A stretch of DNA of 30,775 bases, taken from the IMG/VR virus record IMGVR_UViG_3300024320_000025, positions 1 through 30,775 of that record; one strand, 5' to 3'. The translations under genes were made by a program, and so were the position numbers. A model generated the notes under the pieces. That model saw only the letters and a list, made by a program, of their open reading frames with translations, was not told the origin of the DNA and did not search any database. Shown here in pieces: positions 8,261 to 30,622 of the stretch (position 1 is its first letter; each line of letters begins with the position of its first letter). This DNA is from a virus.

Positions 8261-8692
8261 ATGAGAACTTGGAAATGGTACTTCGTGTTTAACGCCGGTA
8301 TCTTGGGTCTTATAGGGGGTCAGTACTGGTTTAATCTAGGTAATGTGTTATACGAAGCAGACAGCACAATGTTGACATTCATTATCCTAGGTATAGCTAT
8401 TATCTCATCGTCCATGATGGGACTACGTGCTAAGAAAATGGTTGGACAAGATAACAACATGTCCTGGTTCCTCTCTGATGCAGTTCTTAGCCTTGGTATG
8501 GTAGGTACTCTATTCGGGTTCCTCCTTGTACTAGACTCTGCCTTCACAGAGATCGACACATCGTCCACAGAGAGTATGACAGAGGCTATCGGAGTTCTTG
8601 CATCAGGTATGTCTACTGCTCTTGTAACGTCCCTTGTAGGGCTCCTATCGTCACTCTGGTTAAAACTACAGCTAGTCATCTTGGAGGGTTGA
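8261..8692 (+). CDS. ExbB/TolQ/MotA-like proton channel subunit
   Basis: A 143-residue membrane protein with about four hydrophobic segments (near residues 7-26, 37-56, 73-92 and 113-138). The last two resemble the two core helices of ExbB/TolQ: LGMVGTLFGFLLVLDSAF and GMSTALVTSLVGLLSS, with the Gly-Thr and Thr/Ser residues that line the proton path in the family. It is much smaller than host ExbB, with no large cytoplasmic loop. The next gene encodes a single-TM protein with a buried Asp, as ExbD/TolR/MotB do, so the two probably form a proton-driven complex in the inner membrane. Confidence 0.76.
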   Translation: MRTWKWYFVFNAGILGLIGGQYWFNLGNVLYEADSTMLTFIILGIAIISSSMMGLRAKKMVGQDNNMSWFLSDAVLSLGMVGTLFGFLLVLDSAFTEIDTSSTESMTEAIGVLASGMSTALVTSLVGLLSSLWLKLQLVILEG

Positions 8693-20882: not shown

Positions 20883-20922
20883 CCCCCGGAAACCTTAAGT
20901 TAATTATACATGTTTCCAGGGG
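20883..20922. repeat. 11-bp inverted repeat spanning a -10 box
   Basis: The arms CCCCCGGAAAC (20883-20893) and GTTTCCAGGGG (20912-20922) pair at 11 positions with one G.T, around an 18-base centre that holds the -10 box of the minus-strand promoter. There is no T-run on either side, so an operator is more likely than a terminator. Confidence 0.8.
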
Positions 20923-20931
20923 TTCTGTCAA
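20903..20931 (-). promoter_or_regulatory. Consensus sigma70 promoter inside the structural arm
   Basis: Read on the minus strand: TTGACA (20931-20926), exactly 17 bases, TATAAT (20908-20903), a full-consensus promoter. It lies between the two-TM gene and the acyltransferase-like gene and would drive the block of internal virion proteins down to 11903. Confidence 0.85.
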
Positions 20932-28268: not shown

Positions 28269-29342
28269 TTATGCCAAGTTGTACTTAGCTGTTACAAGAG
28301 CCTCAGGACGCAGAATCTTACGACCATAGAGGTGCATACCACGGACGATGTCAGCAAAGCTGTCTGGGTCACGGTATGTTTCTGTCTTGTTGATCTGCTC
28401 AGCAGTTGCAACAGCAGAGTCATGGCCACCAACAATAACACCGTAGTCAGTGTTCTGGTTAGCTGTACCTGTAGTAGCAGCACCACCACCTACACTTGGC
28501 AGGTTGTTTGAGACATAGACGCGGAAGCCGTTCCACTTGTTCATGACGAGACCGTTGCGCAGGGCACCTGAGTCACCGAAGTCAGCATTCAGGAAGCGGC
28601 TGTCTTCGTCCATGAGAACTTCAAGCATAACTGGGTCAATTACGATCCAGCGGCCATCTTTATCAACGTTCTGTTGGTCAAGAAGACGACCCATACGGTT
28701 GATCAACATAACAGGTGAAGCATATGCTGTTGGTAGAGCTGTTGCACCTGGGAGGCGAGCAGCAACTGGGATCGAGTGATCAGCAGCAGAAGCAGTTGTG
28801 ATGTTACCAAATGAGTCTTTGCGGAGCTTCATTGAAGCCAGCAGTTCGTCTGAACCAGCCGTTGTGTCAGCTTTAGTGCCGTTTACTTGGTCGTTTACAG
28901 TGTCACCGGCAGTGTGCAGAGCAGACTGTTTGTAACCTGAAAGGTAACCGAGTACTTCTTGGTCAAGCTGGTCAGCCAGGCGGTAAGCCGCGCGGTTTGT
29001 AGCAAGGTCCATGAAGTTAACGTGGCTGTGTGCTTCTTCGATATCGTCAATCTTGAAAGCAAAGTAGTTAGCTTTGTCGACAACGAGTGAGAAGTCTGCG
29101 TCATCAAGGTCTTGAGCAGCGATAGTTGTACCACGTGCGTAGCTTGATACTGAGATTTCAGGCTCTTTGATGATTTTAACTGTATCACCTTGTGCACTGA
29201 TTTCACCGAAGTAGTCAGAGTTAGTGATGTCATTACAGATAGCCTTCTTGCGGAATGCAAGTTGTACTTTCTTGGAATAGATAACACTTGAGAAGTTGCC
29301 GTTAGGCAAGTTGGTGTAACCACCAGCTGATGCGAAAGCCAT
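28269..29342 (-). CDS. Major capsid protein
   Basis: A 357-residue protein. Features of HK97-fold podovirus capsids are a KKVQLAFRKKAICNDITNSD segment near the N-terminus (about 24-43), an FKIDDIEEAHSHVNFMD spine region, the long DQLDQEVLGYLSGYKQSALH helix, and DGRWIVIDPVMLEVLMDEDS in the C-terminal half. It follows a 310-residue scaffold gene and precedes the adaptor gene, the usual order. It has its own strong promoter, a structured leader of about 290 bases and an AAGGA ribosome site, consistent with high expression. Confidence 0.9.
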   Translation of the reverse strand: MAFASAGGYTNLPNGNFSSVIYSKKVQLAFRKKAICNDITNSDYFGEISAQGDTVKIIKEPEISVSSYARGTTIAAQDLDDADFSLVVDKANYFAFKIDDIEEAHSHVNFMDLATNRAAYRLADQLDQEVLGYLSGYKQSALHTAGDTVNDQVNGTKADTTAGSDELLASMKLRKDSFGNITTASAADHSIPVAARLPGATALPTAYASPVMLINRMGRLLDQQNVDKDGRWIVIDPVMLEVLMDEDSRFLNADFGDSGALRNGLVMNKWNGFRVYVSNNLPSVGGGAATTGTANQNTDYGVIVGGHDSAVATAEQINKTETYRDPDSFADIVRGMHLYGRKILRPEALVTAKYNLA

Positions 29343-29638
29343 TGTATATATCCTTCTAGATGTTTGGCTTGATAAGTAAGAATCCTAAAGACCCACACAA
29401 GGTGCTTAAGGTTAATCGAGTTATGTGTGGGAGGATTCCAGTTAAGAGAACCTAAACAATCGGGATAAGAGGCTGATAGATTTCTAGGGTGCTTTCAGGG
29501 TAGCTTGCCAGCTAGTCCCTCCAGGGCCTGTACTTAATCAGGTAAGTCTTAGAGATTATTAGTGTTCAGTAGTCTACCCCGTTAGGGGCTACTGTATATG
29601 TTCACGGGTATCCAAGGCGGGGCCGTTAAACATATACA
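29343..29638 (-). promoter_or_regulatory. Structured untranslated leader of the capsid mRNA
   Basis: The gap between scaffold and capsid genes (29343-29689) holds no supported ORF. The transcript predicted from the promoter at 29639-29667 would fold as several hairpins: CAGTAG/CTACTG with an inner CCCC/GGGG (29567-29594); AGGG-TAGCT/AGCTA-CCCT (29497-29520); and a long stem of GAATCCT/AGGATTC plus CCCACACA/TGTGTGGG (29380-29438). They may be RNase III-like processing sites, mRNA stabilisers or a cis control element. Confidence 0.65.
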
Positions 29639-29640
29639 GT
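29591..29640. repeat. 12-bp perfect inverted repeat beside the capsid promoter
   Basis: ACTGTATATGTT (29591-29602) and AACATATACAGT (29629-29640) are perfectly complementary around a 26-base centre, which also has ACGG/CCGT arms. The right arm touches the -10 box and covers the likely transcription start. Candidate operator or RNA hairpin. Confidence 0.85.
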
Positions 29641-29667
29641 TATACCATACTCGTCCTTGGGTGTCAA
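29639..29667 (-). promoter_or_regulatory. Sigma70-type promoter for the capsid gene
   Basis: On the minus strand: TTGACA (29667-29662), a 17-base spacer and TATAAC (29644-29639), with TGG just before the -10 (extended -10). It lies between scaffold and capsid genes. Confidence 0.78.
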
Positions 29668-29689
29668 GGTTTAATTGAGTATAATGATA

Positions 29690-30622
29690 TTAGCGAGCAC
29701 GGCCAGAGATGTCGTAAACAAACTTACCTGAGGCCATCGCTTCTTGGATTTCATCGTAACGGTTCTCAAACTCTTTGTCACTCATCTTAGAGACAACTGA
29801 CTCTTTGAGATAAGAACCTGCCTCGTCTGTATCAACTACAGTACGGGACTTCTTAGCTACTGTTTTAGCAGCATCCTTGGCTTGAGCCTTCTTAGCAGAA
29901 GGTGTAAGACCGTTGTCAACCTTGTAAAGGTCAAGAACACGGATAACACTACCGGCATCGTCTGAGTTCTCATAGAGGGCGTCACGTACCCACTTAGGTT
30001 GCTCGTCGACCCAGTCATGGAACTCGTCTGCCTCACGGAGGTCATCGAAGTCAGAGTGTGCTTTACGAATCTCTGTCTCAGCACGAGTACGGGATGCTTC
30101 GTACTTAGCCTCATCCAACTCCTTGAATCGTTCACTAGCATCAGCGAAACGCTCAGCAGCTTTCTTCTCAGCAATGGTCTCTACGATAGCAGCTACATCG
30201 GGGTGCTTGCTTGCCCATGCTTCGATGTCTTCGTCTGACTTAGGTGGACGGACTGAGGTGTCGGATTTAGCAGCTTCAAGCTTCTCTTTCCACTCCTTCT
30301 CCTTCTCAGCCATATGTCGGCGCAAGTCACCATAACGTTTCTTAAAGGACTTCTCCTCACGGCTAAGCTTCTCATCATCTTCTTCATCAGACTCGTCAGA
30401 CTCAGGAGCAGCCTCTACAGGCTCTTTAACCTCTTTAGGGGCCTTGGGTACCTCGGACTCCTCCTCGACCTCCTCAGGGGCCTCTACGCCGCTCTGAGCG
30501 GCCATCAATGCTGCTAGTTCCGCTTCATCCTTTTTCATACGAGCTTGCTTAGCTGCGTAGTTGCTTCCACGGGCCATCATAGCCTCATCAATCTTAACTT
30601 CTTTAACCATTTCTTTAGCCAT
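29690..30622 (-). CDS. Capsid assembly scaffolding protein
   Basis: A 310-residue protein, very acidic and rich in Glu, Lys and Ala, with long predicted helices (LSREEKSFKKRYGDLRRHMA, KKAAERFADASERFKELDEA). It lies immediately before the capsid gene. The C-terminal segment (MSDKEFENRYDEIQEAMASG, then a basic end) is where scaffolds usually bind the coat. It would guide prohead assembly and then leave the capsid. Assignment by composition, helicity and gene order. Confidence 0.84.
   Translation of the reverse strand: MAKEMVKEVKIDEAMMARGSNYAAKQARMKKDEAELAALMAAQSGVEAPEEVEEESEVPKAPKEVKEPVEAAPESDESDEEDDEKLSREEKSFKKRYGDLRRHMAEKEKEWKEKLEAAKSDTSVRPPKSDEDIEAWASKHPDVAAIVETIAEKKAAERFADASERFKELDEAKYEASRTRAETEIRKAHSDFDDLREADEFHDWVDEQPKWVRDALYENSDDAGSVIRVLDLYKVDNGLTPSAKKAQAKDAAKTVAKKSRTVVDTDEAGSYLKESVVSKMSDKEFENRYDEIQEAMASGKFVYDISGRAR

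Follow-up and report, generated by a model that had tools for sequence, protein, structure and literature searches.

A conserved, covarying leader RNA precedes the major capsid gene of HMO-2011-type phages

The major capsid gene of an HMO-2011-type podovirus and of its relatives is preceded by a long structured RNA, in which helices are maintained by compensatory base changes and the letters of a repeated internal loop are strongly conserved. It is described here both from the window (that is, the whole stretch of DNA analysed: the 30,775 bases of virus record IMGVR_UViG_3300024320_000025, an HMO-2011-type podovirus contig) and from homologous capsid loci. Judged by comparison of sequences, this RNA is a new family of phage leader RNA, for which a function is proposed below. 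That it is a structured cis-regulatory element is very likely, given that paired positions change in a compensatory manner across homologues and that it keeps a fixed position before one gene.

The closest named relatives of the window's capsid are found in Roseobacter phages CRP-13 and CRP-9 and in Puniceispirillum phage HMO-2011, and its match to the P22 coat family (PF11651) is weak. The gene upstream of the capsid gene stands in the scaffold position (Table 1); because its product matches no Pfam family, its putative scaffold role is suggested by position and composition. Between the two genes lies the capsid leader gap of 347 nt (29343-29689, minus strand), the largest among genes taken from the list of open reading frames, in agreement with the initial annotation, which had pointed to it as the only gap over 300 bp. 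The homologous loci were collected by a capsid search (the best 80 of at least 600 IMG/VR loci, plus 15 named phage records), and a set of 90 loci was formed by setting aside one truncated locus and five leaders that duplicate others exactly. Across loci in which both genes can be placed, the gap before the capsid gene measures 155-347 nt, with the exception of ctYwJ313 (locus L086; 798 nt), whose leader contains, between the hairpin termed here H1 and the conserved core, a gene with the annotation PacI-like HNH-motif endonuclease. Despite being split from H1 by this gene, the core of ctYwJ313 still adjoins the capsid start. The HNH insertion itself resembles a homing-type insertion.

The gap carries a near-consensus sigma-70-type promoter; an extended -10 promoter had been noticed here at the outset, and the exact string TTGACA-N16/17-TATAAC turns out to occur only once in the window (0.01 occurrences expected by chance). 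TTGACA-like and TATAAC-like hexamers 16-18 nt apart are kept in 86 of the 90 leaders, with the -10 hexamer reading exactly TATAAC in 80 of these 86. A second promoter, with the perfect consensus TTGACA-17-TATAAT, lies within the late genes at 20903-20931 (minus strand) and is followed by an AT-rich stretch.

Table 1. Coordinates of the capsid leader features and flanking genes in the window
Feature	Position	Strand	Description
GC-rich hairpin with UUCG loop	28238..28259	(-)	directly 3' of capsid stop codon; no T run
Major capsid gene	28269..29342	(-)	357 aa; PHROG 267; Pfam PF25209, PF19821, PF11651
Conserved box, Shine-Dalgarno-like motif and spacer	29343..29370	(-)	box AAGCCAAACAUC, GAAGGAU, spacer before capsid ATG
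Accessory two-helix hairpin	29380..29439	(-)	about 15 pairs; variable module
P1, 3' strand	29448..29461	(-)	GAUUGUUUAGGUUC; from duplex energies
Core RNA	29466..29551	(-)	86 nt; P2, central loop AAGUA/GAAA, P3a, P3; model R1 75.8 bits, E 4e-20
P2 internal loop, short strand	29471..29472	(-)	CC
P3 internal loop, long strand	29489..29491	(-)	CAC
P3 apical loop	29506-29509	(-)	GGCA
P3 internal loop, short strand	29525..29526	(-)	CC
P2 internal loop, long strand	29542..29546	(-)	CUUAC
P1, 5' strand	29554..29567	(-)	GAACACUAAUAAUC; from duplex energies
Hairpin H2	29567..29593	(-)	GC-rich, CCCC/GGGG with CAGUAG/CUACUG; in window and near relatives
Hairpin H1	29591..29640	(-)	at transcript start; 12-bp dyad as outer stem, with arms at 29629-29640 and 29591-29602
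H1 internal loop	29621-29622 / 29608-29611	(-)	G[CC] / [AUAC]C
Promoter, sigma-70 type	29639..29667	(-)	TTGACA-17-TATAAC, TGn extended -10 (TGG before -10)
Upstream gene, scaffold position	29690..30622	(-)	310 aa; PHROG 13678, function not assigned

The most conserved element of the leader, which the initial annotation did not single out, is the core at 29466-29551. Its structure (P2, P3a and P3) was outlined by visual inspection of members of the very family on which it was then tested. On a MAFFT alignment of 38 cores built without structural information, it leaves 88.5% of cells paired, and changes on both sides occur in 15 of the 23 pairs. The covariation score for these 38 cores is 0.374, as against 0.133 ± 0.012 for shuffled alignments, none of 500 shuffles reaching it, and it falls to 0.043-0.085 when partners are slid by 1-3 columns. 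A covariance model (R1), built from 38 of 54 cores by omitting near-duplicates and the most divergent ones, detects the core in 87 of the 90 capsid loci; in the alignment of these 87 matches (A3), which is fitted to the model, both-side changes are seen in 21 of 23 pairs and covariation is 0.394 (0.119 ± 0.007 shuffled). The three leaders that R1 misses, namely those of CRP-738, RHph_N3_13 and phiM6, show the same layout in their unconstrained minimum-energy folds, with a 4/2 and then a 2/4 internal loop, at fold energies that are ordinary relative to shuffles. Absence of covariation had been named in advance as grounds for discarding the idea of a structured RNA here; instead the structure covaries strongly, which supports the earlier view that the region exceeds the needs of simple ribosome binding. 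Because the fold energy of the core region alone is no better than that of shuffles (z -0.55), the evidence for the core is covariation and not stability. A candidate local hairpin CCUG/UAGG was rejected and replaced by the covarying P3a UAGG/CCUA together with P2 CUG/CAG. Elsewhere in the window, a weak R1 match (8579-8616, minus strand; 15.2 bits, E 0.046) resembles the P2 part only and is probably due to chance.

An asymmetric internal loop, G[CC]/[N-YAC]C, recurs in the leader at up to three places: once in H1 and twice in the core, where the copies run opposite to each other, P2 having its long strand first and P3 its short strand first. Both short strands read CC in all 83 distinct cores. 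The long strand of P2 is ACUAC in 34 of the 83, CUUAC in 13, AUUAC in 9, ACCAC in 8, CCUAC in 7 and others in the rest, and its 12 commonest variants (82 of the 83 cores) all end in AC; the long strand of P3 is CAC in 79, ACUAC in two, UUAC in one and ACCAC in one. Between the two copies, the central loop reads AAGUA in 66 of 83 cores, opposite GAAAA-like letters. The resulting pseudo-twofold symmetry of the two core loops would therefore point to a symmetric or multivalent protein. The P3 apical loop is GGCC in 33 cores, GGCA in 13, GCGC in 12, GGCG in three and GAUC in three, with 19 of the 83 unaligned there. Kissing or dimerisation through palindromic apical loops (GGCC, GCGC, GAUC) was considered and rejected, inasmuch as the palindrome is lost in the window group, which has GGCA, and in others that have GGCG. 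At its apex P3 seems to accept interchangeable parts: either short loops or longer arms, whose ACUGAUC(C/A)UUA-like tip is shared by phages that otherwise differ.

The leader strand as a whole folds at -92.9 kcal/mol, as compared with -76.2 kcal/mol for shuffled sequences (z -3.5), and beats all 100 dinucleotide shuffles; the opposite strand departs less from its shuffles (z -2.2), 3 out of 100 of which fold equally well. The perfect 12-bp inverted repeat reported earlier is indeed present and forms the outer stem of H1; because it overlaps the end of the -10 box, part of it may precede the transcript start. The H1 loop motif is present in 68 of 81 leaders tested (13 being without it) and reads G[CC] against [CUAC]C or [AUAC]C plus variants, the last five letters of the long side being CUACC in 46, AUACC in 8, ACACC in 6, CCACC in 4, UUACC in 3 and UCACC in one. 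Helix H1 likewise covaries: with rows anchored by maximising pairing, and with four odd rows and the 13 motif-less leaders dropped before the count, 188 cells are double-changed as against 76 ± 7 in shuffled alignments (52 distinct rows). Its lower stem probably shields the 5' end of an abundant mRNA. The outer helix of the core hairpin, P1, appears to be real on the strength of its duplex energies, which average -9.2 kcal/mol for a strand with its own partner, -8.2 for swapped partners and -6.2 for shuffled ones (84 leaders), though it is supported more weakly than the core.

At least three further strong hairpins had been noticed in the initial annotation. Those found here are a GC-rich hairpin (about 29567-29593), the long hairpin of the core (29448-29567) and a two-helix hairpin of about 15 pairs (29380-29439). 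The last of these, which had been stressed earlier, proved however to be the least conserved part of the leader: it occurs in five of the leaders examined, including the window and an identical copy (L001), and all 28 of the IMG/VR matches to its pattern lie before a capsid gene. This accessory hairpin adds to the distance between core and start codon, and the core therefore tolerates a variable distance. Nearer the start codon, the box AAGCCAAACAUC before the Shine-Dalgarno (SD) sequence is strongly conserved yet lacks a conserved pairing partner. Two candidate partners were rejected. In many leaders the 3' strand of P1 can form a good helix with the AAGCC box that precedes the SD, but in the window group this helix is disrupted, P1 having changed against an unchanged box. 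The other candidate was the P3 apical loop (UUGGC), which varies, whereas that box stays constant. Sequestration of the SD was also rejected, pairing of this region giving no signal: it is on average 0.43 unpaired versus 0.44 for the rest of the leader, and with SD pairing thus ordinary, no built-in on/off switch is visible.

When whole records are searched with R1, 28 of 31 give a match at E ≤1, with one confident match apiece; no second confident copy occurs in the 28 matching records, any extra match having E 0.017 or worse. A DNA pattern for the core yields at least 120 matches in IMG/VR. Among the 115 that fall in newly fetched loci, 114 lie 27-125 nt before the capsid start, and the one exception sits 18 nt from a contig end. 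No match is found in one genome each of 84,980 bacterial and archaeal species. A looser pattern gives four bacterial or archaeal matches, which show no convincing capsid homologue or full downstream motif and were judged to be chance; the best of the four reaches 24.7 bits, having been selected on about 22 letters. Among more distant phages, eight whose capsids are 28-44% identical (four pelagiphages, Aeromonas 1233, Slicky01, CHOED and RHph_TM3_14A) show no confident core match and have pre-capsid gaps of 16-58 nt. By contrast, RHph_N3_19, whose capsid is 57% identical and which R1 misses, has a 155-nt gap in which both loop strands occur twice, as in RHph_N3_13. In this sample, therefore, the element follows a capsid clade above about 55% identity.

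What might such a leader do? It is rather more probable that it binds a protein than that it binds a small molecule or nothing and, granted a protein partner, scaffold or coat is the likely choice. The reading as a whole, namely a protein-binding cis-regulatory leader that most likely provides assembly-sensing control of the capsid through scaffold or coat, is put forward tentatively. The leader is taken to be the 5' untranslated region of the capsid mRNA: a host-type promoter lies right behind the upstream gene, H1 stands at the transcript start, and the long core hairpin P1-P2-P3 ends a short distance ahead of the capsid start codon. Under the proposal, the repeated loops would together offer several contacts to a single protein, with scaffold or coat as the likeliest candidate; whenever this protein is in excess over growing proheads it would bind the leader, and the bound leader would lower the translation or the stability of the capsid mRNA and so match coat supply to assembly. 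A more elaborate version, which seems rather doubtful as a whole, is that the leader is a multivalent RNA operator of a previously unknown kind: a loop used three times would bind oligomers of scaffold or coat, the assembly state of the prohead would directly set capsid synthesis in a phage group that ranks among the most abundant in the sea, and the module would have arisen once, with its promoter, in alphaproteobacterial phages. The distance of 27-125 nt between core and start codon argues against tight steric occlusion by a protein bound to the core.

A dedicated partner gene would be expected to track the RNA, and gene content was accordingly compared between eight RNA-bearing and four RNA-free genomes by tblastn (E 1e-4, 45 codons; CRP-738, Slicky01, RHph_TM3_14A and ctYwJ313 stand outside these 8 + 4 genomes). 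Ten annotated CRP-13 genes, all on the late strand, are matched in all eight RNA-bearing genomes: gp37, gp39, gp48, gp49, gp50, the capsid gene, the upstream gene, the portal gene and those of both terminase subunits. All ten are also matched in three or four of the four RNA-free genomes. The other reading frames matched in eight of eight lie inside or antisense to genes; one of them, a frame of 122 codons antisense to the portal gene (a shadow ORF), is absent from the RNA-free set. No dedicated partner gene thus tracks the RNA in this comparison, so that one is unlikely within the reach of tblastn. Because RNA-free relatives possess homologues of the capsid and upstream proteins, these proteins do not in general depend on the RNA. 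Distances between RNAs correlate with distances between upstream proteins (partial r 0.45) more than with those between capsids (0.14-0.22; 77 loci), and similarly so with nucleotide distances, but this is a hint only, inasmuch as the loci were picked by capsid similarity, the genes are linked and the upstream gene evolves faster.

Three ideas were offered by the initial annotation: a family of processing sites, a separate small RNA, and a feedback element to which coat or scaffold would bind. The last of these now appears to be the leading idea. A separate small RNA is disfavoured because a scan of the leader strand found no terminator between the core and the start codon and because the RNA stays adjoining the capsid start. 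A family of processing sites is disfavoured because there is no second confident copy per record and because loop letters, not just helices, are conserved. In its RNase III form, where cleavage would separate the capsid mRNA from the upstream transcript and so give it a defined 5' end, this idea draws on the presence of a long irregular hairpin between two genes, besides having been suggested at the outset. Yet the promoter already defines a 5' end, the loop letters are conserved, and each searched record has a single confident site, a T7-type arrangement of several sites per genome being found in none of the 28 matching records; it is accordingly highly improbable. An alternative that dispenses with a ligand altogether is a passive expression element, which would yield a strong, stable and well-translated capsid mRNA with its 5' end hidden in H1 and a structured body that would protect it from nucleases. 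The strength and conservation of the promoter and the closeness of the H1 stem to the transcript start suit this explanation, as does the stable hairpin found 3' of the capsid gene in 24 of the 84 distinct stretches that follow it (3 of these hairpins have at least five T in the next eight bases). Stability, however, needs neither invariant loop letters (CC in 83 of 83 cores twice over; AAGUA in 66 of 83) nor the same loop repeated in fixed orientations, and a passive role therefore seems unlikely.

Two further alternatives retain a ligand other than scaffold or coat. As a put-type antiterminator, the nascent leader would bind the host RNA polymerase and let it read through terminators of the late operon. 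Its place right behind a host-type promoter (86 of 90 leaders), near the transcript start, is what one would look for in such an RNA, which would use the host polymerase, and the hairpins 3' of the capsid gene in 24 of 84 phages might be its targets. However, the remaining 60 of the 84 phages carry the leader RNA nonetheless and have no strong hairpin within 60 nt 3' of the capsid gene; there is one copy at one promoter, R1 giving no match at the promoter at 20903-20931; and when a gene is inserted, as in ctYwJ313, the core stays near the capsid start and not near the promoter. Antitermination is thus distinctly unlikely. A riboswitch, in which the central loop AAGUA/GAAAA and the two flanking loops would bind a small molecule as an indicator of the infected cell's condition, is very unlikely. 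Conserved loop letters and covarying helices do look aptamer-like, but no alternative helix is conserved (the candidate, P1 3' strand with AAGCC box, being the pairing broken in the window group), and a loop that occurs in as many as three copies is more in keeping with a multivalent protein. Moreover, riboswitches usually have cellular homologues, whereas this RNA has no match beyond chance in the 84,980 bacterial and archaeal species searched.

The proposed control by scaffold or coat has precedents. Phage coat and scaffolding proteins are known to autoregulate, as in the MS2 coat/replicase hairpin and the P22 scaffolding gene. The likeness is that the mRNA of an assembly gene is structured or regulated and that the partner here would be a virion assembly protein; in addition, the window's capsid matches the P22 coat family PF11651. 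What differs is that the present RNA is a long leader of two domains in which an internal loop recurs and whose binding is putative, the systems being likened by description and not by sequence or fold. Ribosomal protein leader RNAs are also multi-helix leaders with conserved loops that precede a highly expressed assembly protein; unlike these, the capsid leader is specific to a phage clade, was not found in bacteria and has no Rfam match. The put antiterminator RNAs of phage HK022 are hairpins with conserved loops at a phage transcript start, and the capsid leader, too, is promoter-proximal and has hairpins with conserved loops, but it is a single site at a late gene with no terminator consistently apparent downstream. 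At the level of three-dimensional motifs, the C-loop, which is defined by non-canonical pairs, is described as a recurrent asymmetric internal loop inside a stem (PMC8570644, PMC3854523); the leader loop is likewise recurrent and asymmetric, a likeness that concerns layout. Structured RNAs in marine phages also include manA, wcaG and PhotoRC-II of cyanophages, of which PhotoRC-II is reported to go with photosynthesis genes (PMC2864571). These three are in Rfam, whereas the capsid leader RNA is without an Rfam match and precedes a capsid gene.

The claim of novelty rests on Rfam 15 and on a search of the literature. The Rfam search that had been suggested from the start matched no family: there is no match at gathering score in the whole window, none at E up to 5 in the leader and none in the leaders of five relatives. 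Among the titles and opening abstract lines surveyed in an open literature library, no account was found of a structured RNA before an HMO-2011-type capsid gene, nor any work on late-gene control in HMO-2011-type phages. The words intergenic, non-coding, promoter and RNA polymerase are all absent from the main text of one genome paper on these phages (PMC9038755); in another (PMC6918029) promoter is absent and intergenic is used for rDNA only.

In the ocean, HMO-2011-type phages are reported to be both dominant and widespread (PMC9038755). A conserved and covarying RNA offers a testable handle on their late-gene control, with defined helices, loop letters, candidate partners and relatives with and without the RNA. 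It would also supply a new family for RNA libraries and a marker for such phages in metagenomes and metatranscriptomes. If the leader does sense assembly, it would be a DNA-phage counterpart of the coat operators of RNA phages, and a route into how tailed phages match coat to scaffold.
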